Virus record (IMG/VR): IMGVR_UViG_3300045971_000506
Span: 1-28,754 of that record
From: a virus
Length of the DNA stretch: 28,754 bases
Strand: one strand, 5' to 3'
Shown in pieces: positions 6,988-17,392 of this stretch (its first letter is position 1; each line of letters starts with the position of its first letter). Made by a program: the position numbers and the translations under genes. The notes beneath the pieces were generated by a model. The model was not told the DNA's origin. It did no database searches and saw only the letters and a list, made by a program, of their open reading frames with translations.

Positions 6988-9320
6988 TGGCGGTTTTGAT
7001 CACCGGCACCGGCACCGGCCCCTTCAATATTGCGGGCTCTGGGGTAACCGACCCCGTAACGTCAGCAGCGATCTACGCTTACGTCATTGCGCAAAACGCG
7101 GCGAATGCGAGTCGCATTGGTACGACAATTTTCAGCTACTCGTGGGCTTGCAAATTTACCTTAACGTCTTGCCTCTGGAACCCCGTTCAGGAAGCGCACA
7201 TTTTTGCGCAGACCCCAACAATCGGGGCAAGCGCGGAATTCCGAAATGGTTCGCTAGTCTCTGGAGTAGCCAAAAACGGCGGCATGATTCAAATGCCAAC
7301 GACTGGCGGCCTACTCACCGGAGGCGGAAAATTTGCAAGCTACGGCGGGGTAGTGGCGGCACCTCTCTCGTCGCCAGGCGCGTCGAACGGTCCCGTCGTG
7401 TTGCGCGACACGGTTTGCCAGTTCGCCGACTCCATCACAAACAGTGGCACTAATGATTATTTTCGCGTGACCATCGGCAGTTCGGGCGCTGTGGGATTCA
7501 AGGTCACGGTTATCCCGATCCGGTTTCAAGACGTTAAATTTGCCGGTTGCACCATCGCTTTTCAACACAACACAACATCGCCATTCACGCCTGTCGATAC
7601 GATTCTCGAACAAGTTACTTACGACATCGTTGACAACCTAACAGTTAATACGCTCACGCTGCAAGGGCTTTACTCAGATTTCGGCGTACCAAAAAACACA
7701 TTGGTGATCACCGGGGAGCGTGCCGGAGGTATCAAGATTATCCAGTGGCGCTACAACCTTGCAGTGAGCAGCGCATCGGGCCTGCTCAGCGGCGCAGCCG
7801 TGACTATCTGTGACGTGCTCGGCGTCGTCACCTATTCGGGTGCTACGGCGTCAGGCGTCATTCCACAGCAAACGCTTGAGAGAGTTCGTTACACAGGGCT
7901 AGTTAACCGCGCTTATCTCACGCCATGGGCTGGCACCATCACCAATAAATATCCGCACACGGTTCGTGTTCGAAAATTCGGCTTTTTGCCGGTCGAAATC
8001 GTCAAGCAGGCTGATCAGCACAGCGCCGACGGCGTGATTTTGGCGGCTGACACCGGTGCTACGGGAACAGAAGCAGCGGCGGCGATGATCACGGGTGTGT
8101 CGATTGATCCGGTCACTCAGACTGTGACAGTGAGCGAGGTGCGGCCGGTGCCAGAGATTTACAACGCCATTGCTTATTTTCTGGCTTTGGCGGCAAATCA
8201 TGGGGTTCCCTGGTTTGCTTTGTGCAGCGGTAGCACCGTACGCACGGACGCGTGGAGTTGGGTGCTTACTGTACCCGTGACTGGCACAGTCGCAAGCAGT
8301 GCGGGCGTGATCGCTGCGCTGGCGGCCTGCGTGTCTGCAGTCGTGTTGACTGGCACGGCAAGATGGGACACGCAAGCGCCATGCGTCGCCCAGGGCGGAA
8401 GCGCGGCCAGCGGCACAACTGTACGCGTAACGGCAGCAACAAGCGGGGCCGTGTCGGACTTCAGCGCCTTTGAGTTCGACGCGGGCAGCATTTTTGAAAA
8501 TAACAGCGGACAGTCGATCACACTCCAGCTCACGCCGGGTCAGACGGTGCCAACGCTGCTTGCCACCGCCGGAACGATCATTGTGGACGCCAGCATTGAT
8601 GCCGTTATCACAGCACCCCACTTGCTACCCGGTACCACGGTGCGCCTGTACGACAAGACCAACAATGTCCTACTCGACGAGTCCGTTACAACAGTCACGG
8701 GCTACAGCTTTGCCAAGGGCTGGACGGCTAATGCCCTTCTTGAGTTGCGGCATGCAAAGCTCGGTTACATGCCGCGCGTGAGCCTTGGCGCATTTACCAG
8801 TGCGGGCGCGACTTTCTTGGATGTGCAATCTGCCAATGCTGTGTACGACGCTAACGGCATTGATGGCGCCACGCTGGCTGCCGCCGAGTTTGCGACTGAC
8901 TTTGTGCAAGTGCAGATTGACATTGCAGACAGCGATAAGGCCACTACGTTTCAGCGTCTTTACGCGTGGTATTGCTATGTCGAAACGACTTTCTCGGGGT
9001 TGCAGTATTTTGCTGGGGGCCTGAGCGCCGTTGACACGGTCAACTACATGGTGAACGTCAATGTGGTTGACCTCAAGCTCGACAATGTGCTGCGCACGCC
9101 TACGCTTCTAACGGGCGGCAGCATGACCCGATCGGACGGCACTAGCATCATTGCAGACACGAGTGGCAGCATTCAGATTGACCCTGCCAAGGCTTATGTG
9201 GCAAACAGCAGCGGGCTTATGGTCGCTATCGTGGCCAAGCCTAGTTTGGCCCAGATCGAGGGAAGCGCTGTGTTGGCCAAGGAATCCACGGTGCAAACCG
9301 TTTTGGGCCTGAGCGTGTAG
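6987..9320 (+). CDS. Large fibre / putative receptor-binding protein
   Basis: 777 residues, rich in Ser, Thr, Ala, Gly and Val and almost without charged helices, as in beta-helical or beta-prism fibre shafts. There are two recognisable zones. Residues ~500-700 contain GTTVRLYDKTNN and an IDIADSDKATTFQRLYAWYCY block followed by YFAGGLSAVDTVNYMVNVNVVDLKLDN. The C-terminus (IDPAKAYVANSSG...VLAKESTVQTVL) is of a type seen at the ends of Burkholderiales phage surface proteins. ATG 6987 shares a base with the preceding TGA. Stretches such as 7080-7700 are visibly more AT-rich than flanking genes, which suggests exchange between phages. The function as adsorption fibre is inferred from size, composition and context. 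Confidence 0.6.
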   Translation: MAVLITGTGTGPFNIAGSGVTDPVTSAAIYAYVIAQNAANASRIGTTIFSYSWACKFTLTSCLWNPVQEAHIFAQTPTIGASAEFRNGSLVSGVAKNGGMIQMPTTGGLLTGGGKFASYGGVVAAPLSSPGASNGPVVLRDTVCQFADSITNSGTNDYFRVTIGSSGAVGFKVTVIPIRFQDVKFAGCTIAFQHNTTSPFTPVDTILEQVTYDIVDNLTVNTLTLQGLYSDFGVPKNTLVITGERAGGIKIIQWRYNLAVSSASGLLSGAAVTICDVLGVVTYSGATASGVIPQQTLERVRYTGLVNRAYLTPWAGTITNKYPHTVRVRKFGFLPVEIVKQADQHSADGVILAADTGATGTEAAAAMITGVSIDPVTQTVTVSEVRPVPEIYNAIAYFLALAANHGVPWFALCSGSTVRTDAWSWVLTVPVTGTVASSAGVIAALAACVSAVVLTGTARWDTQAPCVAQGGSAASGTTVRVTAATSGAVSDFSAFEFDAGSIFENNSGQSITLQLTPGQTVPTLLATAGTIIVDASIDAVITAPHLLPGTTVRLYDKTNNVLLDESVTTVTGYSFAKGWTANALLELRHAKLGYMPRVSLGAFTSAGATFLDVQSANAVYDANGIDGATLAAAEFATDFVQVQIDIADSDKATTFQRLYAWYCYVETTFSGLQYFAGGLSAVDTVNYMVNVNVVDLKLDNVLRTPTLLTGGSMTRSDGTSIIADTSGSIQIDPAKAYVANSSGLMVAIVAKPSLAQIEGSAVLAKESTVQTVLGLSV

Positions 9321-10996: not shown

Positions 10997-12471
10997 AAAG
11001 CGCCCAAACACGTGCCGCTATCAAGCGGGCCAGCCAGCAGGCCCGCAACGCCATGCGGGAGCTCGATGCTGCCGTGCTGGAGCAACTGCTGGCCCTGTAT
11101 ACCGATGCCGCTGACGAAGTGCGCGCCACGATCCTGCACCTGGTGGATGGCAGCGACACGGTACCGGTTGCCAACCTGCGGGGCCTATTGCGGCAGATTG
11201 ACGACGTGGTGGATGCGTTGGCCCTCAAGCGCAACGAGCTGCTGGTGCAAAGCGTGGACCAGGCTGCCGCGTTGGGCGTGCGGCCTTACACCCTGCCGGG
11301 CGTGAGTGCCACCGGTGTCGCTGGCCAGGCCGTGCTGGAAAGTGGCGCTGCCATGAAGATCCACCAGGAAGCCGTGCGCTTTGTACAGAGCTTTTCCGCC
11401 GCCGATGGCCTGACGCTGAGCAATCGCCTGTGGCGGCTAAACCAAGGCGCCAAGGAAGTGCTGAGCCGATCCATTGGCCAAGCCGTGGTGGCAGGCTGGG
11501 ACGCCAGCAAAGCCGCCGCCCAGTTCATGTACAGCGGGCAGACCGTGCCGCTGGATGTGCAGGCCCGCCTGGGTGCAGCCAAGGCTGATGCCCTGTTGCA
11601 CAGTGCTGACCTTCTGACCGACAGCGCGGGCGAGGTGTGGAAGGCCGAGCGCGTGTTTCGAACTGAAATCAACCGTGCGCATGGCACCGCGTACATGACC
11701 AGTGCGGAAAGGACGCCAGGGTTTGCGGGCTTCAAGTTCCTGCTGAGCCCACAGCACCCCAAACACGACATTTGCGACCTGCTCTCCACCCAGAACCTCT
11801 ATGGGCTAGGGGAGGGCGTCTACCCTGATGCGCGGACCTGCCCGTGGCCGGCCCATCCCAATACGCTCAGTTTTGTGAACATCGTGTTTGCGGAAGAGGT
11901 GACTGCAGCCGACCGGGCCGGAAAGGAAACCGTGACCGAAGCAATGGCACGGTTGAGCCCGGAGGAGCGCACCGGGGTTCTCGGTGTGGAGAAATCTGCC
12001 CTCTATGACGCCGGCAAGGTCAAACCATGGATGATCCGCAGCCCTTTGCGGGCCGTGCGGGAGCGCATGGCGCGGCAGGGCGCTGCGGTAGCATCGGCGC
12101 CAATGCAAATCCATCCTGATGCGATCCCCAATGCCGGGAGCGCCACCGTCCGCGCTGAAAAGCTGGTTCAATACGCGCTCAATTCAAACAGCGAAAGTGG
12201 CCGTCACAAGGCCCTGGTGTTTGAGTCGGTGCTGGGGTACAACCAAAGCAACTTTGAGGAACTGCGGCAGCAATTGTCGCAAGGCGTCCCCACTGTGGCC
12301 GCTGTCAAGAGTTTGCAAGATGTCTATGGTCAGCGCTACACTGCACTGATACCGGTCACTGGGCCAAAGGGTACCGCCGTAGTGACAACGGGATGGATAC
12401 TCAGGCCAGGCAGCGATACCCCGGATTTGATCACCGCCTACATTCCCACGAGAAGGAACAAAAATGTTTGA
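10993..12471 (+). CDS. MuF-type minor head protein with C-terminal DUF6883 (putative toxin) domain
   Basis: 492 residues from TTG 10993, preceded by GGTAGAG and overlapping the previous stop as TTGA; no better in-frame ATG precedes the conserved part. Residues ~1-300 are a MuF/SPP1 gp7-like head morphogenesis protein: a helical region, then VWKAERVFRTEINRAHGTAYM (from residue ~215) and HPKHDICDLL...CPWPAHPN, the Cys/His end of MuF. A linker follows to ~370. Residues ~374-489 match DUF6883 (KLVQYALN, GRHKALVFESVLGY, YGQRYTALI, GTAVVTTGWIL, LITAY). MuF proteins with variable C-terminal domains are an established class of phage polymorphic toxins carried in virions. The toxin role of DUF6883 here is inferred from architecture and the adjacent DUF4926 gene. 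Confidence 0.75.
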   Translation: MKSAQTRAAIKRASQQARNAMRELDAAVLEQLLALYTDAADEVRATILHLVDGSDTVPVANLRGLLRQIDDVVDALALKRNELLVQSVDQAAALGVRPYTLPGVSATGVAGQAVLESGAAMKIHQEAVRFVQSFSAADGLTLSNRLWRLNQGAKEVLSRSIGQAVVAGWDASKAAAQFMYSGQTVPLDVQARLGAAKADALLHSADLLTDSAGEVWKAERVFRTEINRAHGTAYMTSAERTPGFAGFKFLLSPQHPKHDICDLLSTQNLYGLGEGVYPDARTCPWPAHPNTLSFVNIVFAEEVTAADRAGKETVTEAMARLSPEERTGVLGVEKSALYDAGKVKPWMIRSPLRAVRERMARQGAAVASAPMQIHPDAIPNAGSATVRAEKLVQYALNSNSESGRHKALVFESVLGYNQSNFEELRQQLSQGVPTVAAVKSLQDVYGQRYTALIPVTGPKGTAVVTTGWILRPGSDTPDLITAYIPTRRNKNV

Positions 12472-12676
12472 AATGTTCCAAACCATCTGGACCACAGTGC
12501 CTGTGCCGGCATTGGGCTTGGGCGCGGGTGCCAAAGGCGTGATCGTTGACGTCTACCACGAGCCCTATCCCGGATACGAGATCGAGTTCATTGACGCTGA
12601 GAGTGAGCCCATTGGCCTGCTGTCGATGCAGCCCAATGAGATATCCAGCACCTTGCCGGCCCGTCTGGCAGCCTAG
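12464..12676 (+). CDS. DUF4926 family protein, putative immunity partner of the MuF-DUF6883 protein
   Basis: 70 residues, overlapping the MuF gene end by 8 nt. The core matches DUF4926: L-GAGAKGVIVDVYHEPYPGYEIEFIDAESEPIGLLSMQPNEI, i.e. an SH3/KOW-like small barrel with hGxVV-x-Y...YEVEF-DA. From memory, DUF4926 genes are often found immediately beside DUF6883 genes in bacteria, including outside phages, which argues for a functional pair. In MuF toxin loci the gene just downstream of the toxin commonly encodes immunity, protecting the lysogen while virions are assembled. Binding has not been shown and the direction (antitoxin versus accessory) is inference. Confidence 0.72.
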   Translation: MFEMFQTIWTTVPVPALGLGAGAKGVIVDVYHEPYPGYEIEFIDAESEPIGLLSMQPNEISSTLPARLAA

Positions 12677-12697: not shown

Positions 12698-12709
12698 TAA
12701 ATATTGGCC

Positions 12710-13060
12710 ATGAGCTACTTTGACGCCGCGCTTGACATCCAGAAAGAGAAGTTCACCCCCTTTAAGGCCCTGATCGTCCTGGACGACAAGGTGCTGCGCA
12801 AGTACGTGATGTGCTGGGGCCCGGAGCTGGTGCGCCGGCTCAACGATTACCCGAGGGATACCACCATGGCCGACCTGTGGGACTGCGTGCGGGTGGACTT
12901 CCAGGCACTGGCAGATCTGACCGGCGACAGCATGCCCCAGGTGATGGCGCGCTTTCGCCAAGCGCAGGGCCTACAGCTGATCTACCCCGATGGCAATGTG
13001 GCCGATGCCGTGACGCGCGTGCTGCGCAAAAAGATGGTTGAGCAGTCTGAGGGCGAGTGA
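12710..13060 (+). CDS. Hypothetical phage protein
   Basis: 116 residues from ATG 12710 (MSYFDAALDIQKEKFTPF); an upstream in-frame TTG at 12704 is less likely. Mixed alpha/beta composition with a helical C-terminal half (LADLTGDSMPQVMARFRQAQGL, VADAVTRVLRKKM) that could be a helix-turn-helix-like segment, though no family is recognised. No strong ribosome-binding site is visible. It is the last rightward gene before the immI-like module and converges with the Mnt-like gene across a 17-bp gap containing a CCGC/GCGG hairpin. Confidence 0.55.
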   Translation: MSYFDAALDIQKEKFTPFKALIVLDDKVLRKYVMCWGPELVRRLNDYPRDTTMADLWDCVRVDFQALADLTGDSMPQVMARFRQAQGLQLIYPDGNVADAVTRVLRKKMVEQSEGE

Positions 13061-13077: not shown

Positions 13078-13461
13078 CTAACTGCTCTTGACTGACTTGC
13101 GCTCCATGATGATGGATGCTTCTGGTGGGATCATGGTTCTGCTGGCTTCCAGCATCTCCCTGAACTGGGCGATGGTGGTCTGCGGGGTGATGGTGGCATG
13201 GAACAACGTGCCACCGTTGGCCATCGCGGTGCGAGCCATGCGCACGTGCGCCTCTTCGAATGTGCCGCCGCGCATCTCCATTTCATGATCAACGGCCTCT
13301 ATCACGTCGAAGGGCAGCGCCTTGCTGTCTTCGAATGACGCCTTCAGGCGCGCGACTATCTCGGCCGTAAGGGTCCTAGTGTTTGCGGCTGCGGCAGTCA
13401 GAAGCTGCTCCTTCAATTCACTTGGGAGACGCAGGTTGGTTTGGATATCGAATTTCGCCAT
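13078..13461 (-). CDS. Mnt-like ribbon-helix-helix repressor
   Basis: 127 residues. Residues ~5-45 (IQTNLRLPSELKEQLLTAAAANTRTLTAEIVARL) form an Arc/Mnt ribbon-helix-helix: the DNA-contacting strand QTNLRL and two helices with the conserved N-x-R-x-L-x-x-EI turn. The remaining ~80 residues have no recognised family and may drive oligomerisation or ligand sensing. It is transcribed leftward, divergently from the Arc-like gene, across a ~90-bp control region, exactly as mnt is from arc-ant in phage P22. Expected role: repress the antirepressor promoter in the lysogen. It shares about a dozen aligned residues with the divergent Arc-like protein, so the two may be related by duplication. Confidence 0.78.
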   Translation of the reverse strand: MAKFDIQTNLRLPSELKEQLLTAAAANTRTLTAEIVARLKASFEDSKALPFDVIEAVDHEMEMRGGTFEEAHVRMARTAMANGGTLFHATITPQTTIAQFREMLEASRTMIPPEASIIMERKSVKSS

Positions 13462-13486
13462 TGCCCGAGGATACCAATCAAAGTGC

Positions 13487-13515
13487 TTGCAATCTAGGTA
13501 TCACAAAGCTATGAT
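13487..13515 (+). promoter_or_regulatory. Sigma-70 promoter for the arc-ant operon
   Basis: TTGCAA (13487-13492) and TATGAT (13510-13515) are spaced by exactly 17 nt. This gives a strong rightward promoter with a start near 13522 and a ~30-nt leader to the Arc-like ATG. The -10 box lies inside the palindrome described as operator. Confidence 0.68.
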
Positions 13516-13529
13516 AGCTATGTGCTATG
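13507..13529 (+). promoter_or_regulatory. Candidate operator for ribbon-helix-helix repressors
   Basis: The 13-bp palindrome AGCTAT-g-ATAGCT (13507-13519) covers the -10 box. GCTATG occurs three times here (13508, 13517 and 13524). Ribbon-helix-helix repressors bind short inverted or tandem boxes, so occupancy would block the arc-ant promoter. In P22, Arc and Mnt act on the equivalent region. Confidence 0.55.
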
Positions 13530-13550
13530 TCGCACGACCAGGAGAAACAG

Positions 13551-13721
13551 ATGGCAAGAAGTGATACGCAGACGAACCTGCGATTAAAAAAGGAAATGAA
13601 AGATTGGCTGAGGCAGCAGGCGGAGGCTAATAAACGAAGCCTGACCAGCGAGATTGGTGTGATTCTTGAGGATTACCAGCGCCGGCAAACACAGCAACGG
13701 GAGACGGCCCATGCGACCTAA
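13551..13721 (+). CDS. Arc-like ribbon-helix-helix repressor
   Basis: 56 residues, close to P22 Arc (53). ATG 13551 is preferred over 13527 because CAGGAG lies 6 nt before it. The sequence has a DNA-binding strand TQTNLRL, helix A (KKEMKDWLRQQAEAN), turn KRSLTSEI and helix B (GVILEDYQRR), the full Arc fold. The stop overlaps the antirepressor start by 11 nt, so the two are translationally coupled. By analogy with P22 it shuts off its own operon after early antirepressor synthesis. Confidence 0.78.
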   Translation: MARSDTQTNLRLKKEMKDWLRQQAEANKRSLTSEIGVILEDYQRRQTQQRETAHAT

Positions 13722-14427
13722 ACCCACAAAAGGAAACGCCCCGGCTGTTTGCGCAGCCTGGGCGTCAAGTGCCCAGAACCAATCCTCTAAAGAAAGAACT
13801 AAGCCTGTGAATTCTAAAGCAGGCACCCAAAAAAGTGAACCCGTTGCCCTGGCGGGGCAGCTCATCCCCGTGCTCTTTGGCCCAGACACCCTAATTTTGG
13901 TTGAGCATAATGCTCAGCCCTATGTGGTCATGAAGCCCTTGGTGACGGCAATGGGCCTCGATTGGCGCAGCCAGCACGTCAAACTTGGTGAGAAATTCGG
14001 GGCAGTTATGGTGGAAATCACCACAACTGGTGCAGACGGAAAGCAGTACGCCATGGGCTGCCTGCCACTGCGCAAACTCCCAGGCTGGCTCTATTCCATC
14101 AACCCCGGCAAGCTGAGCGCCGAATTGCGGCCCAAGGTTGTGCGCTACCAGGACGAGTGTGACGAAGTGCTGTGGCGCCACTGGACCCAACAGGAGCCGC
14201 TGCACGGCGGCAAGCGCCTGAACCACAGCGACAGCGACCGTCTGCTGCGCCGCCGTGGCGACTTGCGCAAGGAGCTGGGCAACACCGCCAGTCTTGGCGT
14301 GGCCACCGATGCTTTTGCAGATTACGTGATGGTCAGCTCGTTGCTCGGACAGCGCGCATCGACCTTGCGCGAACTGGCCCCCGGAATCCGTCAGCAACTG
14401 TTGGAGCTGGAAGGCGGTGCTTCATGA
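13711..14427 (+). CDS. Antirepressor, P22 Ant-like
   Basis: 238 residues from ATG 13711 (GGGAG 7 nt upstream). After a ~45-residue basic, Ser/Lys-rich leader comes a P22_AR_N domain (about residues 48-155): IPVLFGPDTLILVEHNAQPYVVMKPLVTAMGLDWRSQHVKL, then LPLRKLPGWLYSINP, then YQDECDEVLWRHW. This is the signature of phage antirepressors, which in P22 bind and inactivate the C2 repressor. The C-terminal ~80 residues are helical. Ant proteins of incoming phages can induce resident prophages. The repressor it targets is not in the window. It sits with Arc-like and Mnt-like genes as in the P22 immI region, but within the head operon. Confidence 0.82.
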   Translation: MRPKPTKGNAPAVCAAWASSAQNQSSKERTKPVNSKAGTQKSEPVALAGQLIPVLFGPDTLILVEHNAQPYVVMKPLVTAMGLDWRSQHVKLGEKFGAVMVEITTTGADGKQYAMGCLPLRKLPGWLYSINPGKLSAELRPKVVRYQDECDEVLWRHWTQQEPLHGGKRLNHSDSDRLLRRRGDLRKELGNTASLGVATDAFADYVMVSSLLGQRASTLRELAPGIRQQLLELEGGAS

Positions 14428-14654
14428 GCAGCGAACTCACCGAGTGCGTGACAGAGACACTGTCAGACGCCCAGGGCGCACACCTGCGCATTCGCGCCCT
14501 GCTGGAGCTGCTGCGTGGCTGCCCGCCGGACTACCCGCTGTCGGCGGGGTTGTTCATCGGGCTGATTGAGTCGGTGCGCGAGCGCATGGACAATGTCGTG
14601 GATGGGCTGCAAGTCGTGCATAAAAATGCACCGGAGACCGCCTGGTTGAATTAG
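14424..14654 (+). CDS. Small helical protein, paralogue of the protein at 1885
   Basis: 76 residues overlapping the antirepressor stop as ATGA, so part of the arc-ant transcript. It reads ALLELLRGCPPDYPLSAGLFIGLIESVRERMDNVVDGLQVV, a helix-rich core lining up with residues ~70-115 of the 125-residue protein at 1885-2262. It lacks that protein's acidic N-terminal half. Followed at once by a strong terminator. No known family recognised. Location suggests an accessory to the antirepressor switch. Confidence 0.65.
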   Translation: MSSELTECVTETLSDAQGAHLRIRALLELLRGCPPDYPLSAGLFIGLIESVRERMDNVVDGLQVVHKNAPETAWLN

Positions 14655-14672
14655 CAAAGTGCAGCCATAAAC

Positions 14673-14709
14673 TGCAAAAGGCGTCGCGTAAAAACCGGCG
14701 CCTTTTGCA
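14673..14709 (+). terminator. Strong terminator of the antirepressor operon
   Basis: An 11-bp perfect stem TGCAAAAGGCG (14673-14683) with CGCCTTTTGCA (14699-14709) and a 15-nt loop; the descending arm carries the T tract. It ends the arc-ant transcript 19 bp after the last gene, so the capsid block must have its own promoter or rely on antitermination. Confidence 0.7.
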
Positions 14710-14720
14710 TTTCTACGCTG

Positions 14721-14743
14721 CCAAAATCCCCCCTTTTTTTGTC
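14721..14743 (+). repeat. C6T7 element, copy 2, upstream of the capsid fusion gene
   Basis: CCAA(AA)T-C6-T7-GTC differs from the copy at 3081-3103 at two positions only. Located between the antirepressor terminator and the capsid gene start, 51 bp before ATG 14795. Confidence 0.7.
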
Positions 14744-14794
14744 CCACTGAAACTTTGAAACTGTGCCCCATCGGTTAGACCGATGAGAGGCACT

Positions 14795-17392
14795 ATGAAG
14801 CGTTCGATCATTGCAAATGCAGTCGCGTTGGCGGCACGGCACATCCTTCTGGAAGAGGGCAGCACACCGGGATTGGTGCGCTTCCTGAGCCAGTCGGTAA
14901 CGTTGGCCGACGGCGTGACGCAAACGTGGGTGACGTTGACCAGGATTGGCAACTTCACAGACCCACGCTATGGTGATTTTTCGATCACGCTGGACATGCT
15001 TGGCCAGATGGTTGGCAACTTTAATCAGCGCGTTTTGGGGCAGGACGTGTTTATTGATGTGAGCCACCGGCCCAGCGATGGTGCTGCAGGCAAAGTGTGC
15101 AAGCTGTCGGTCGAGTCCGGCCGGCTGCGCGCCCTGGTGGAGTGGACGCCTTTCGGCGTGGACGCCATCAAGCAGCGCGGGTTTACTTACCTGAGCGCCG
15201 AATACCACGAGGCCTGGAAAGACAACGAAAAGCAACAGCCGCACGGCTGCGTTTTGCTTGGCGCTGGCCTGACCGTTCGCCCCGTCATAAAGCACCTGGA
15301 GCCGGTGCAGCTCTCCGAACACGACCAAGACGGTGCTGCGCGCATCGCCATTTCCCCATCCCTTCTCAAAGAACTCACGGAGCATTCCATGAACAAGTAT
15401 TTGCAAACCCTGTTGGCCCGCCTGATCAAACTTGGTTTCACTGAAACCACAGCCAAACCCCTGACCGATGCCGCACTTGTGCAGCTCACAGCGGCAGGCG
15501 AAGAGGAGGGCAAGTGCCTGGCCGTGGTGGAGGCGTTCTATGTTTCCGGCGAAATGGCCATGACACAGATCCGAAGTCTGAGCGCGGACCCCACCCGTGT
15601 GACCCTCCAGTTGGCAACGCCCCAGGCCATCGATGTGGCCGGTGCAGTCAACAAGGCGCTGGCAGACCGTGACACTGCGGCCGCACTGGCCACCACCACC
15701 CTGATTGCCAAGGTCAAGCTGCTGGCTGACACGATTGCCGATGGCGACAAGACACTGACGCCCGAAGGCGTGAAGAAGTTTGCCGATGACTACGCGCCCA
15801 TGGTGACGTCGACCACCACTGACGACCAGGTCAAACACCTGGCCAGCCTGGCGGTCAAGCAGGCGCAGGAACTGGGCGCTGCCAAGAAGCTGGCAGGCCT
15901 GGGCTACAACCCGGCTAGCGGCAACATCCACATCACCGTGGACAGCTCCAACACCATCAAGGCCCTGCAGGCGCAGGCCGACACCCGACTGGGCCTGCGT
16001 GATGCGGACCCGCGCCGCTTCGCCAAGACCGGCGGCATGCTGCTCTCCGAGAACAAGGCTTTTGCCGAAAAGGCGCTTGCTCAGTTCGACAGCCTGCGCG
16101 GTGCTGACATGGACGCCGAGCACAAGACGCTGGCCGCGGGCTTGGGAAGCATTAGCGACACCAAGGTGCCGGTGGTGTTTGAGCGCACGGTGCTGCGTGA
16201 AATGCTCTACAACCTGGTGTCCATCAACTTCATGGACGTGGGTACCTACGCGTTTGCCAACACGGTGGAAATCCCGTACAGCTACCGCGACACCGCAGCC
16301 GCCTCCGCCAATGCCCTGCGTGTATATGAGCGCCAGGCCATCCAAAATGCCGGCATCATCCAGACCAGCGACCTGGCCTACCCGATCCCGCAAAAGCTGG
16401 GCTTCGATATCTCCAACGAGATGCGATACCTGCTGGATGTGGCGCCCCACGACTTTGACGCCATTGCAGAGAACACCCGCAATGTAATCCGCATCGTGAG
16501 CGAAGACACCGAGGCGCTGAACATGAATGAGCTGGTGCGCGCCGCTGACGAGCACCTGGCCACGGCAGTGGCTTCTGAAAACTTGGGCGCCTCCGTCAAC
16601 GGCACCAACAAGACTTTTGCCCTGGCCCAGTTCCCGGTGGTGCGCCCCCGCAAGCTCTTTGATCTGAAGGGCACGCAGATTGGCAGCACGTTGAACCCAA
16701 TAGTGGTGACGCTCAACAGCGTGGTCCGCAATGAGTACGACGGCACCGGCACCCAGTCCGCCGGTACTTACTACACACTGGACTACAACCTGGGTGAACT
16801 GCGCTTTGTGAGCGAGCTGGGCGCCAGTGTCACCCCCACCAATGCCTGGCCGCTGACCGTGGCCTACTTCTACACCCAGAACGTCAGCAAGTTCGACACC
16901 GACCTGGGTGCGCTGACGGTCAAGGACAAGTACGACTTGCTGCTAACGGCCATCGGCAACCGCAAAGTAGTGATTGGCAACGACCGCTTTTACAACCCCA
17001 GCATGGTGCTGATGAGCTCTGCGGTGGACAACACCCTGACGCAAGCCGGCACCTTCCCGGCCAGCGGCCAGCGCCTGGGCACCAGCCTGAACGCTGACGG
17101 CAGCGTGGGTGTGACCAAGGGCATCCAAACCTTCAACAGCACCGCGTCCGGTCTGTACATGGGGGACGCCCGCATCCTGGTGGGCGAGCGCTACAACTCG
17201 CGTTACCGGATGCTCAAGCCCTTTGCCATGAACCCGCTGGAGCAAAAGAAGGACAGCAACGGCAAGTTTGTCGGCGCACTGACCGGCTACGGCGAGCAAT
17301 ACATTGCCTGCCACACGCCGATCAACCGCAAGAACGCGATGACCTCCATCGTGCTGTACAGCTCTGCTGGGCGCGTCACCCGTACGACCTGA
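14795..17392 (+). CDS. Prohead protease / scaffold / major capsid protein fusion
   Basis: 865 residues. ATG 14795 is chosen because GAGAGG lies 4 nt before it; ATG 14783 is an alternative. Residues ~45-175 are a Mu gpI-like (peptidase U35 type) prohead protease: FIDVSHRP with His91, and TYLSAEYH with Ser134 as likely catalytic residues. Residues ~200-385 are Ala/Lys/Glu-rich and helical, as expected of a scaffold. From ~390 to the end is an HK97-fold major capsid protein (IKALQAQADTRLGL, VFERTVLREMLYNL, VEIPYSYRD). It contains an inserted domain (about residues 595-700, LDYNLGELRFVSELG) that may decorate the shell. Single-chain protease-capsid fusions are a known class. The chain must be cut near 385-400 to release the capsid subunit. 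Confidence 0.83.
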   Translation: MKRSIIANAVALAARHILLEEGSTPGLVRFLSQSVTLADGVTQTWVTLTRIGNFTDPRYGDFSITLDMLGQMVGNFNQRVLGQDVFIDVSHRPSDGAAGKVCKLSVESGRLRALVEWTPFGVDAIKQRGFTYLSAEYHEAWKDNEKQQPHGCVLLGAGLTVRPVIKHLEPVQLSEHDQDGAARIAISPSLLKELTEHSMNKYLQTLLARLIKLGFTETTAKPLTDAALVQLTAAGEEEGKCLAVVEAFYVSGEMAMTQIRSLSADPTRVTLQLATPQAIDVAGAVNKALADRDTAAALATTTLIAKVKLLADTIADGDKTLTPEGVKKFADDYAPMVTSTTTDDQVKHLASLAVKQAQELGAAKKLAGLGYNPASGNIHITVDSSNTIKALQAQADTRLGLRDADPRRFAKTGGMLLSENKAFAEKALAQFDSLRGADMDAEHKTLAAGLGSISDTKVPVVFERTVLREMLYNLVSINFMDVGTYAFANTVEIPYSYRDTAAASANALRVYERQAIQNAGIIQTSDLAYPIPQKLGFDISNEMRYLLDVAPHDFDAIAENTRNVIRIVSEDTEALNMNELVRAADEHLATAVASENLGASVNGTNKTFALAQFPVVRPRKLFDLKGTQIGSTLNPIVVTLNSVVRNEYDGTGTQSAGTYYTLDYNLGELRFVSELGASVTPTNAWPLTVAYFYTQNVSKFDTDLGALTVKDKYDLLLTAIGNRKVVIGNDRFYNPSMVLMSSAVDNTLTQAGTFPASGQRLGTSLNADGSVGVTKGIQTFNSTASGLYMGDARILVGERYNSRYRMLKPFAMNPLEQKKDSNGKFVGALTGYGEQYIACHTPINRKNAMTSIVLYSSAGRVTRTT
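15389..17392 (+). CDS. Likely internal start: scaffold plus capsid without protease
   Basis: In-frame ATG 15389 (MNKYLQTLLARL) is preceded by GGAG (15379-15382) with a 6-nt spacer. This is a better ribosome site than that of the full-length gene, and it falls exactly at the boundary between the protease and the helical scaffold region. It would make a 667-residue product lacking the protease. Lambda (C/Nu3) and Mu (I/Z) use the same device to make excess scaffold. This explains how most capsid subunits could be made without a protease attached. Inferred from sequence only. Confidence 0.6.
   Translation: MNKYLQTLLARLIKLGFTETTAKPLTDAALVQLTAAGEEEGKCLAVVEAFYVSGEMAMTQIRSLSADPTRVTLQLATPQAIDVAGAVNKALADRDTAAALATTTLIAKVKLLADTIADGDKTLTPEGVKKFADDYAPMVTSTTTDDQVKHLASLAVKQAQELGAAKKLAGLGYNPASGNIHITVDSSNTIKALQAQADTRLGLRDADPRRFAKTGGMLLSENKAFAEKALAQFDSLRGADMDAEHKTLAAGLGSISDTKVPVVFERTVLREMLYNLVSINFMDVGTYAFANTVEIPYSYRDTAAASANALRVYERQAIQNAGIIQTSDLAYPIPQKLGFDISNEMRYLLDVAPHDFDAIAENTRNVIRIVSEDTEALNMNELVRAADEHLATAVASENLGASVNGTNKTFALAQFPVVRPRKLFDLKGTQIGSTLNPIVVTLNSVVRNEYDGTGTQSAGTYYTLDYNLGELRFVSELGASVTPTNAWPLTVAYFYTQNVSKFDTDLGALTVKDKYDLLLTAIGNRKVVIGNDRFYNPSMVLMSSAVDNTLTQAGTFPASGQRLGTSLNADGSVGVTKGIQTFNSTASGLYMGDARILVGERYNSRYRMLKPFAMNPLEQKKDSNGKFVGALTGYGEQYIACHTPINRKNAMTSIVLYSSAGRVTRTT

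Follow-up and report, generated by a model that had tools for sequence, protein, structure and literature searches.

Why should a phage carry an antirepressor operon of the kind known from the immI region of phage P22 among its head genes, and what would keep such an operon silent there? The DNA analyzed here, which we call the window, is a 28,754-base virus record from IMG/VR in which the terminase, portal, MuF, protease-capsid, neck, and tail genes all lie on the plus strand; its source is, judging from the sequence, an uncultured temperate siphophage of Burkholderiales-type hosts. Positions 13078-14654 hold a module composed of a leftward ribbon-helix-helix gene (RHH1), a second such gene (RHH2), an antirepressor gene with a P22_AR_N domain (ant), and a gene for a small protein; a promoter precedes RHH2, and the last gene is followed by a terminator (Table 1). 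The module sits between MuF with two small genes (ending at 13060) and a protease-capsid fusion (starting at 14783). These two small genes (12464-12676 and 12704-13060) are to be added to the arrangement given in the earlier note on this DNA.

In P22, Arc and Mnt repress the promoter P_ant, Ant inhibits the C2 repressor, and the antisense RNA sar blocks expression from transcripts arriving from the late promoter (PMC2629481, PMC12111858). immI and its antisense RNA have mostly been described in P22-like phages; for a mycobacterial phage region, a single sar homologue identified with Rfam was reported to be expressed (PMC6582537). The earlier note considered the place inside the head cluster unusual, a view that we reject, because P22 immI itself lies as a "moron" between genes 16 and 9 of the late operon (PMC2629481). 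Similar modules adjoin the tail genes in phages Oslo, Klebsiella phi17.1, and Acinetobacter ABMM1. We are fairly confident that the locus in the window is an immI-like "ant moron", that is, an antirepressor operon that controls itself and has inserted between the genes on the MuF side and that for the capsid.

Table 1. Features of the module and its flanks, in positions of the window.
Feature	Position	Strand	Basis
Left flank of the variable site: conserved small gene after MuF	12704-13060	+	Comparison with relatives
RHH1, ribbon-helix-helix protein in the mnt position, 127 aa	13078-13461	-	Pfam Arc, 2.7e-7
Candidate P_ant promoter, TTGCAA-17-TATGAT	13487-13515	+	Consensus scan
Palindrome AGCTATGATAGCT, candidate operator over the -10 box	13507-13519		Shuffle test
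RHH2, Arc-like ribbon-helix-helix protein, 56 aa	13551-13721	+	Pfam Arc, 1.6e-8
sar-like antisense RNA, opposite the RHH2-ant junction	13728-13806	-	R1 and R2 models, covariation
Antirepressor Ant, 206 aa from GTG 13807	13807-14427	+	Pfam P22_AR_N, 4.5e-42; PHROG anti-repressor Ant, 8.9e-47
Candidate P_sar promoter, TTCACT-17-TAGAAT	13811-13839	-	Consensus scan
Small protein, 76 aa, last operon gene, predicted helical hairpin	14424-14654	+	Conserved in relatives
Terminator-like hairpin after the operon	14673-14708	+	Region -28.7 kcal/mol, z -5.2
Right flank: protease-capsid fusion, Mu-like I protein N-terminal part	14783-17392	+	Pfam Mu-like_Pro, 5.9e-10

The gene order mnt, arc-ant proposed in the earlier note is borne out by the Pfam matches of the three proteins. 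RHH1 has an Arc-like N-domain and a C-terminal part that matches no named family; the Mnt C-terminal domain (PF11423), which Pfam finds in P22 Mnt at 1.6e-20, is absent from it. Homologues of RHH1 occur in the relatives L002, L008, L009, L011, L012, and L080. Between the divergent RHH genes, a consensus scan recovered the promoter with 17-nt spacing that had been described before; over 13400-14800 (1.4 kb) the scan gave three promoter-like sites (P_ant, P_sar, and one other) versus 0.4 expected, and promoters occur at the P_ant place also in L002, L008, L009, L080, and P22. The palindrome across the -10 box likewise stood up to base shuffles of the intergenic stretch, in which any such palindrome appeared in 3.7% and one over the -10 box in 0.8%. 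It is short, and its sequence is not conserved: relatives have different palindromes near the -10 box, as does P22. P22 has two operators at P_ant, of which one lies within the promoter and the other 3' of the -10 box. The window has one 6+6 palindrome over the -10 box and GCTATG repeats, and L008, L011, L012, and L080 have two related sites each.

The antirepressor has an Ant-type domain and is not a KilA-N/Bro-only protein, in agreement with the earlier note. P22_AR_C, which P22 Ant carries (7.2e-31), was not found in the window by Pfam at E up to 1; P22_AR_N is instead joined to a C-terminal domain that is common to the Bro-N and KilA-N types found in the same slot, with a LAPG..Q..L motif across the differing N-domains. 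The antirepressor had also been described as overlapping RHH2. The open frame does so, from ATG 13711, which would give an Ant of 238 aa, but translation probably begins at GTG 13807, where the P22 gene starts too, because the -10 box of P_sar is conserved over the first ant codons and lost in L009, which has no antirepressor gene. The frame upstream of GTG 13807 is open in the Burkholderiales cassettes and closed in P22. A recurring peptide, PxKxxAPxA, is encoded where the ant frame runs open through the sar region (window 13711-13806, L002, L008, L011, L012, L216, L219, L220, and L223), and Burkholderiales cassettes may therefore encode an Ant with an N-terminal extension or a coupled leader peptide. 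A separate observation is that one contig, L003 (5095-7396), has three P22_AR_N-type stretches within about 2.3 kb.

The earlier note overlooked the antisense RNA with its promoter. A hairpin with compensatory changes is common to the RHH2-ant junctions of the relatives, and the P22 arc-ant junction folds into the same hairpin with a nearly identical apex. On the minus strand, a T-rich stretch lies 3' of the hairpin in every cassette, which is the P22 sar layout: a 5' stem-loop, a 4-nt linker, a terminator hairpin, and a U-rich tail. The Rfam model of sar (RF00262) matched L002 at the predicted place and strand with 33.3 bits (E 0.0074, about 60 kb, 4227 families), and more weakly L080 (29.1 bits) and L008 (25.9 bits), compared with 97.8 bits for P22 itself. 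Its gathering score of 43 bits was reached by no cassette, and the window gave only a partial plus-strand match of 19.8 bits. A covariance model built from nine sequences, with the window left out and close relatives included (R1), found 13806-13728 on the minus strand as its best match in the record (52.3 bits, E 3.7e-10). Since R1 includes close relatives, a second model (R2) was built from other phages alone, namely P22, CUS-3, WC36-2, JLK-2012, and UFJF_PfDIW6. It still matched the window with 34.8 bits (E about 1.5e-5; the E-values of both models are rough), and L002, L008, L011, L012, and L080 at the same place. Within the R1 alignment, 89% of cells are paired and 10 pairs are changed on both sides, a level reached by none of 500 shuffles, and pairing falls to 38-51% when the structure is slid. 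Helix 1 is the weaker (67% paired, versus 97% for helix 2), and the hairpin of the window has one mismatch. The window thus carries a predicted sar-like antisense RNA at the RHH2-ant junction.

The candidate promoter of this RNA is written into the antirepressor gene: its -10 box is the complement of the first ant codons (GTG AAT TCT A), and the P22 counterpart is TATACT. Of 36 sar-like loci, nearly all have a -10 box in this position; the mean promoter score is 12.9 versus 5.4 in shuffles (L219 and L220 fall outside the fixed promoter window of this scoring). In L009 the box is gone together with the antirepressor gene.

The same hairpin could instead act on the plus strand, as an attenuator, a processing site, or a translational coupling element, with the antisense match as the by-product of a near-palindrome. 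The junction does score on the plus strand too (27.0 bits), and in the Burkholderiales cassettes the ant frame is open through the hairpin and its upstream ATG overlaps the end of RHH2. Nevertheless, we consider this unlikely, because (i) the minus-strand match is full length, from the 5' stem-loop through linker and hairpin to the U tail, at about twice the score (52.3 versus 27.0 bits); (ii) the U-rich tail lies on the minus side, and the plus side has no T tract in most loci; (iii) a minus-strand promoter stands at the right distance across loci; and (iv) the same element in P22 is an established antisense RNA. The presence of the sar-like RNA is additional evidence for the immI-like identity put forward in the earlier note, which is now well supported.

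How general is this arrangement? Among 80 IMG/VR loci with a P22_AR_N antirepressor, collapsed to 42 distinct upstream regions by merging near-identical ones, a sar-like match of at least 25 bits was found in 15 of the 22 with an Arc-like gene directly upstream and in 1 of the 20 without. From these counts the sar-like RNA accompanies the Arc-like gene, an association that is new here. L005 fits too: its Bro-N antirepressor stands behind XRE and ImmA-like (M78) genes, with no RHH pair and no sar match there. In an Stx phage (L095), ant lies in the lysis region with neither an Arc gene nor sar. Weak sar-like matches before the antirepressor were seen in a Corynebacterium phage (L096 1777-1847; 27.4 bits with R1, none with R2) and in an Acinetobacter phage (L085 1705-1777; 18.6 and 19.8 bits). 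CUS-3 (L088 2058-2264) has an RHH open frame 5' of sar and ant, though PMC2629481 reports no arc gene there. Two kinds of candidate were discarded: in a pattern search of IMG/VR for the leader hairpin, 36 of 38 matches were other sites, mostly one enterobacterial terminator, unrelated to ant; and R1 matches in bacterial genomes without a nearby RHH gene (L222, L224, L226, L227, and L229-L231) were judged to be terminator false positives.

The four genes recur as a unit, since they are found at another genome place in L002 (circular record G001, 43.0 kb), 5' of the terminase genes, in the same order and on the same strands; identities to the window are 36% (RHH1), 41% (RHH2), 53% (Ant), and 37% (small protein). 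A module at the site of the window is also present in a bacterial chromosome (G327/L216, in the set for the family of Acidovorax sp. sif1233), with 76% identity for Ant, 66% for the small protein, and 64% for the capsid. At this same site, however, the central gene is not constant. It encodes a P22_AR_N protein in the window, L011, and L216, a Bro-N protein in L008, a KilA-N protein in L012, and an unrelated 126-aa protein in L080, and it is missing in L009, while the RHH pair, the sar-like RNA, and the small protein are retained. Elsewhere in the same bacterial family, the sar-like RNA is followed by AntA (L221) or Bro-N (L217 and L223). Mosaics are seen as well: RHH2 of the window is 82% identical to that of L011, yet the Ant proteins only 44-47%, and L216 combines an Ant 76% identical to that of the window with an RHH1 start and promoter region like those of L002. 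Domain exchange among phage antirepressors is generally known; the novelty here is the apparently fixed RHH-sar block behind which the antirepressor payload varies. These observations suggest that the control half is retained and the controlled gene is swapped.

The last gene of the operon, an addition to the P22 immI set that the earlier note had pointed out, is indeed there. The small protein has no Pfam, PHROG, NCBIfam, PDB, phage-record, or plasmid match and is homologous to the last gene of the relatives (E 8e-14); AlphaFold2 models it as two helices with a mean pLDDT of 82. A seven-member alignment offered no conserved stretches for a scan, and the five closer members led to one new phage locus, L080. 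Because the protein is retained when the payload changes, it may assist the payload. A gene of 263-316 aa with the motif VTRPPAGQ.YW.WVYS and no known family lies between the antirepressor and the small protein in L008 (2461-3411) and L011 (4469-5260). The terminator noted after the last gene is supported by the folding energy of its region, and hairpins stand at this place also in L007, L008, L009, L011, and L012. L007 is itself without the module and keeps a terminator like the operon-end one (7890-7925), perhaps as a trace of a lost module.

The site itself is variable. L007, L010, and L015 are free of the module, other relatives have up to 7 kb of other genes there, and none of the chromosomal capsid relatives L018-L027 has the module inserted between its MuF and capsid genes. 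A slightly variable C/T-tract element, CCCCCCTTTTTTTG (14721-14745), bounds the site on the right; it lies shortly 5' of the capsid gene in each of the 17 phages compared, with and without the module (the window, L004-L012, L014, L018-L022, and L080); it may be a late promoter, a recombination site, or a binding site. Other cargo includes an HSDR_N restriction-type gene in L012 (1096-2241, Pfam) and, by eye, sliding-clamp-like and PAPS-reductase-like genes in L014 (6700-11700), L018, and L019, and a SRAP-like gene in L216 (3264-3884, reverse-complement coordinates). At this same site on the capsid side, L005 (5620-7550) has its XRE and ImmA-like protease genes divergent to the Bro-N antirepressor and the same small protein, in place of an RHH pair with a sar-like RNA.

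With so varied a payload, the operon might be thought a toxin-antitoxin or superinfection-exclusion moron, with the RHH proteins as antitoxins and Ant or the small protein as effector. RHH antitoxins are common, and the payload is sometimes an unrelated protein (L080 and L228). Overproduction of Gp07, a Bro/KilA protein of phage phi11, is reported to inhibit growth (PMC5944126). We nonetheless hold this to be improbable, somewhat more so than a plus-strand element, because no module protein matches a toxin family, four payload types are recognized antirepressor-type domains, and the arrangement of the two RHH genes and sar matches that of immI. Least probable of all is a decayed immI remnant without a present role: L009 has indeed lost ant and the -10 box of P_sar and kept the hairpin, the RHH genes, and the small protein, and degraded ant morons are known in P22-like phages (PMC2629481), but in the window every frame is open and every control element present, the sar stem pairing is maintained through double changes, and Ant (76%) and the small protein (66%) are conserved in the chromosome prophage.

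For a self-controlled ant moron, the following course would be expected by analogy with P22. In the prophage, RHH1 and RHH2 would silence the operon by binding to palindromes at P_ant, and RHH2 would shut it down early in infection. The module lies in the path of the head operon and would therefore have the same need for a sar-type block as in P22: the sar-like RNA would pair with the ribosome-binding region of ant and stop its translation, chiefly on late read-through transcripts of the head operon. Before control is established, for example on entry into a lysogen, Ant would be produced and would inactivate at least one prophage repressor. The control half (RHH-sar) would evolve independently of the payload half, the two being exchanged near the sar/ant start, so that a phage could swap its antirepressor yet keep the control.

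The search for the phage repressor proposed in the earlier note gave no S24-type repressor in the window fragment or in the circular relatives G001 and G002. Since these two circular relatives have RHH and CP76 genes before an integrase and no S24 repressor, the target of Ant here may be something other than a C2-type protein. They (L036 17454-18857 and L041 4074-5432) show a further divergent RHH switch, with one leftward and two rightward RHH genes, then a CP76/CII-type regulator, then the integrase; this is possibly an immunity region without a CI-type repressor.

A bolder proposal, which we offer tentatively and do not favor, is that the RHH-RHH-sar block is a portable silencer for late operons with a payload slot, into which antirepressor types and some unrelated proteins are exchanged, the antirepressors acting on the repressors of other prophages or on RHH-type repressors. 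The first codons (Asn-Ser) of any gene placed at the (A/G)TG-AAT-TCT start would contain the antisense -10 box, and such a gene would therefore stay silent on late transcripts that read through it; the immunity region of the phage family would be one apparently built from RHH and CP76 proteins. Whether sar is a device for the safe carriage of an antirepressor inside a late operon can now be tested, and the payload exchange behind a fixed control block provides natural swaps for matching an antirepressor domain to its repressor.

Compared with known systems, the module resembles P22 immI in its gene order and strands, its two RHH proteins with P_ant between them, the sar-like RNA encoded opposite the arc-ant junction, whose candidate promoter falls within the first ant codons, the P22_AR_N domain of Ant, and its place as a moron in the late operon. 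It differs in phage lineage, late-operon position, and operator sequences, in the other C-terminal part of RHH1 without the Mnt domain, in an Ant without P22_AR_C, in the extra small protein at its end, and in the exchange of payload among close relatives. Because both the Mnt tail domain and P22_AR_C are absent, we class it as immI-like and not as P22 immI. Its RNA shares with the members of RF00262 the two stem-loops, the 4-nt linker, the CUGUU..CGCAG apex, the place, and the strand, but all cassettes score under the 43-bit gathering threshold. Oslo, Klebsiella phi17.1, Erwinia Midgardsormr38, and Pseudomonas UFJF_PfDIW6 have the same order of one RHH gene and an RHH-ant pair with P22_AR_N, and a sar-like RNA was found by R1 or Rfam in Oslo, phi17.1, UFJF_PfDIW6, and, weakly, Midgardsormr38; unlike those modules, that of the window has a small protein with no homologue among phage records. 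The "ant moron" of P22-like phages is, as here, an insert of variable content, in many cases including immI genes, at a single fixed site of the late operon, but its place is between gene 16 and the tailspike gene (PMC2629481), whereas ours follows the MuF-side genes and precedes the capsid gene, and that of L002 precedes the terminase genes; in our case, moreover, the control block is constant and the payload domain variable. Also new is an immI-like module with a predicted sar-like RNA in a phage lineage unrelated to P22, and also in one bacterial chromosome.
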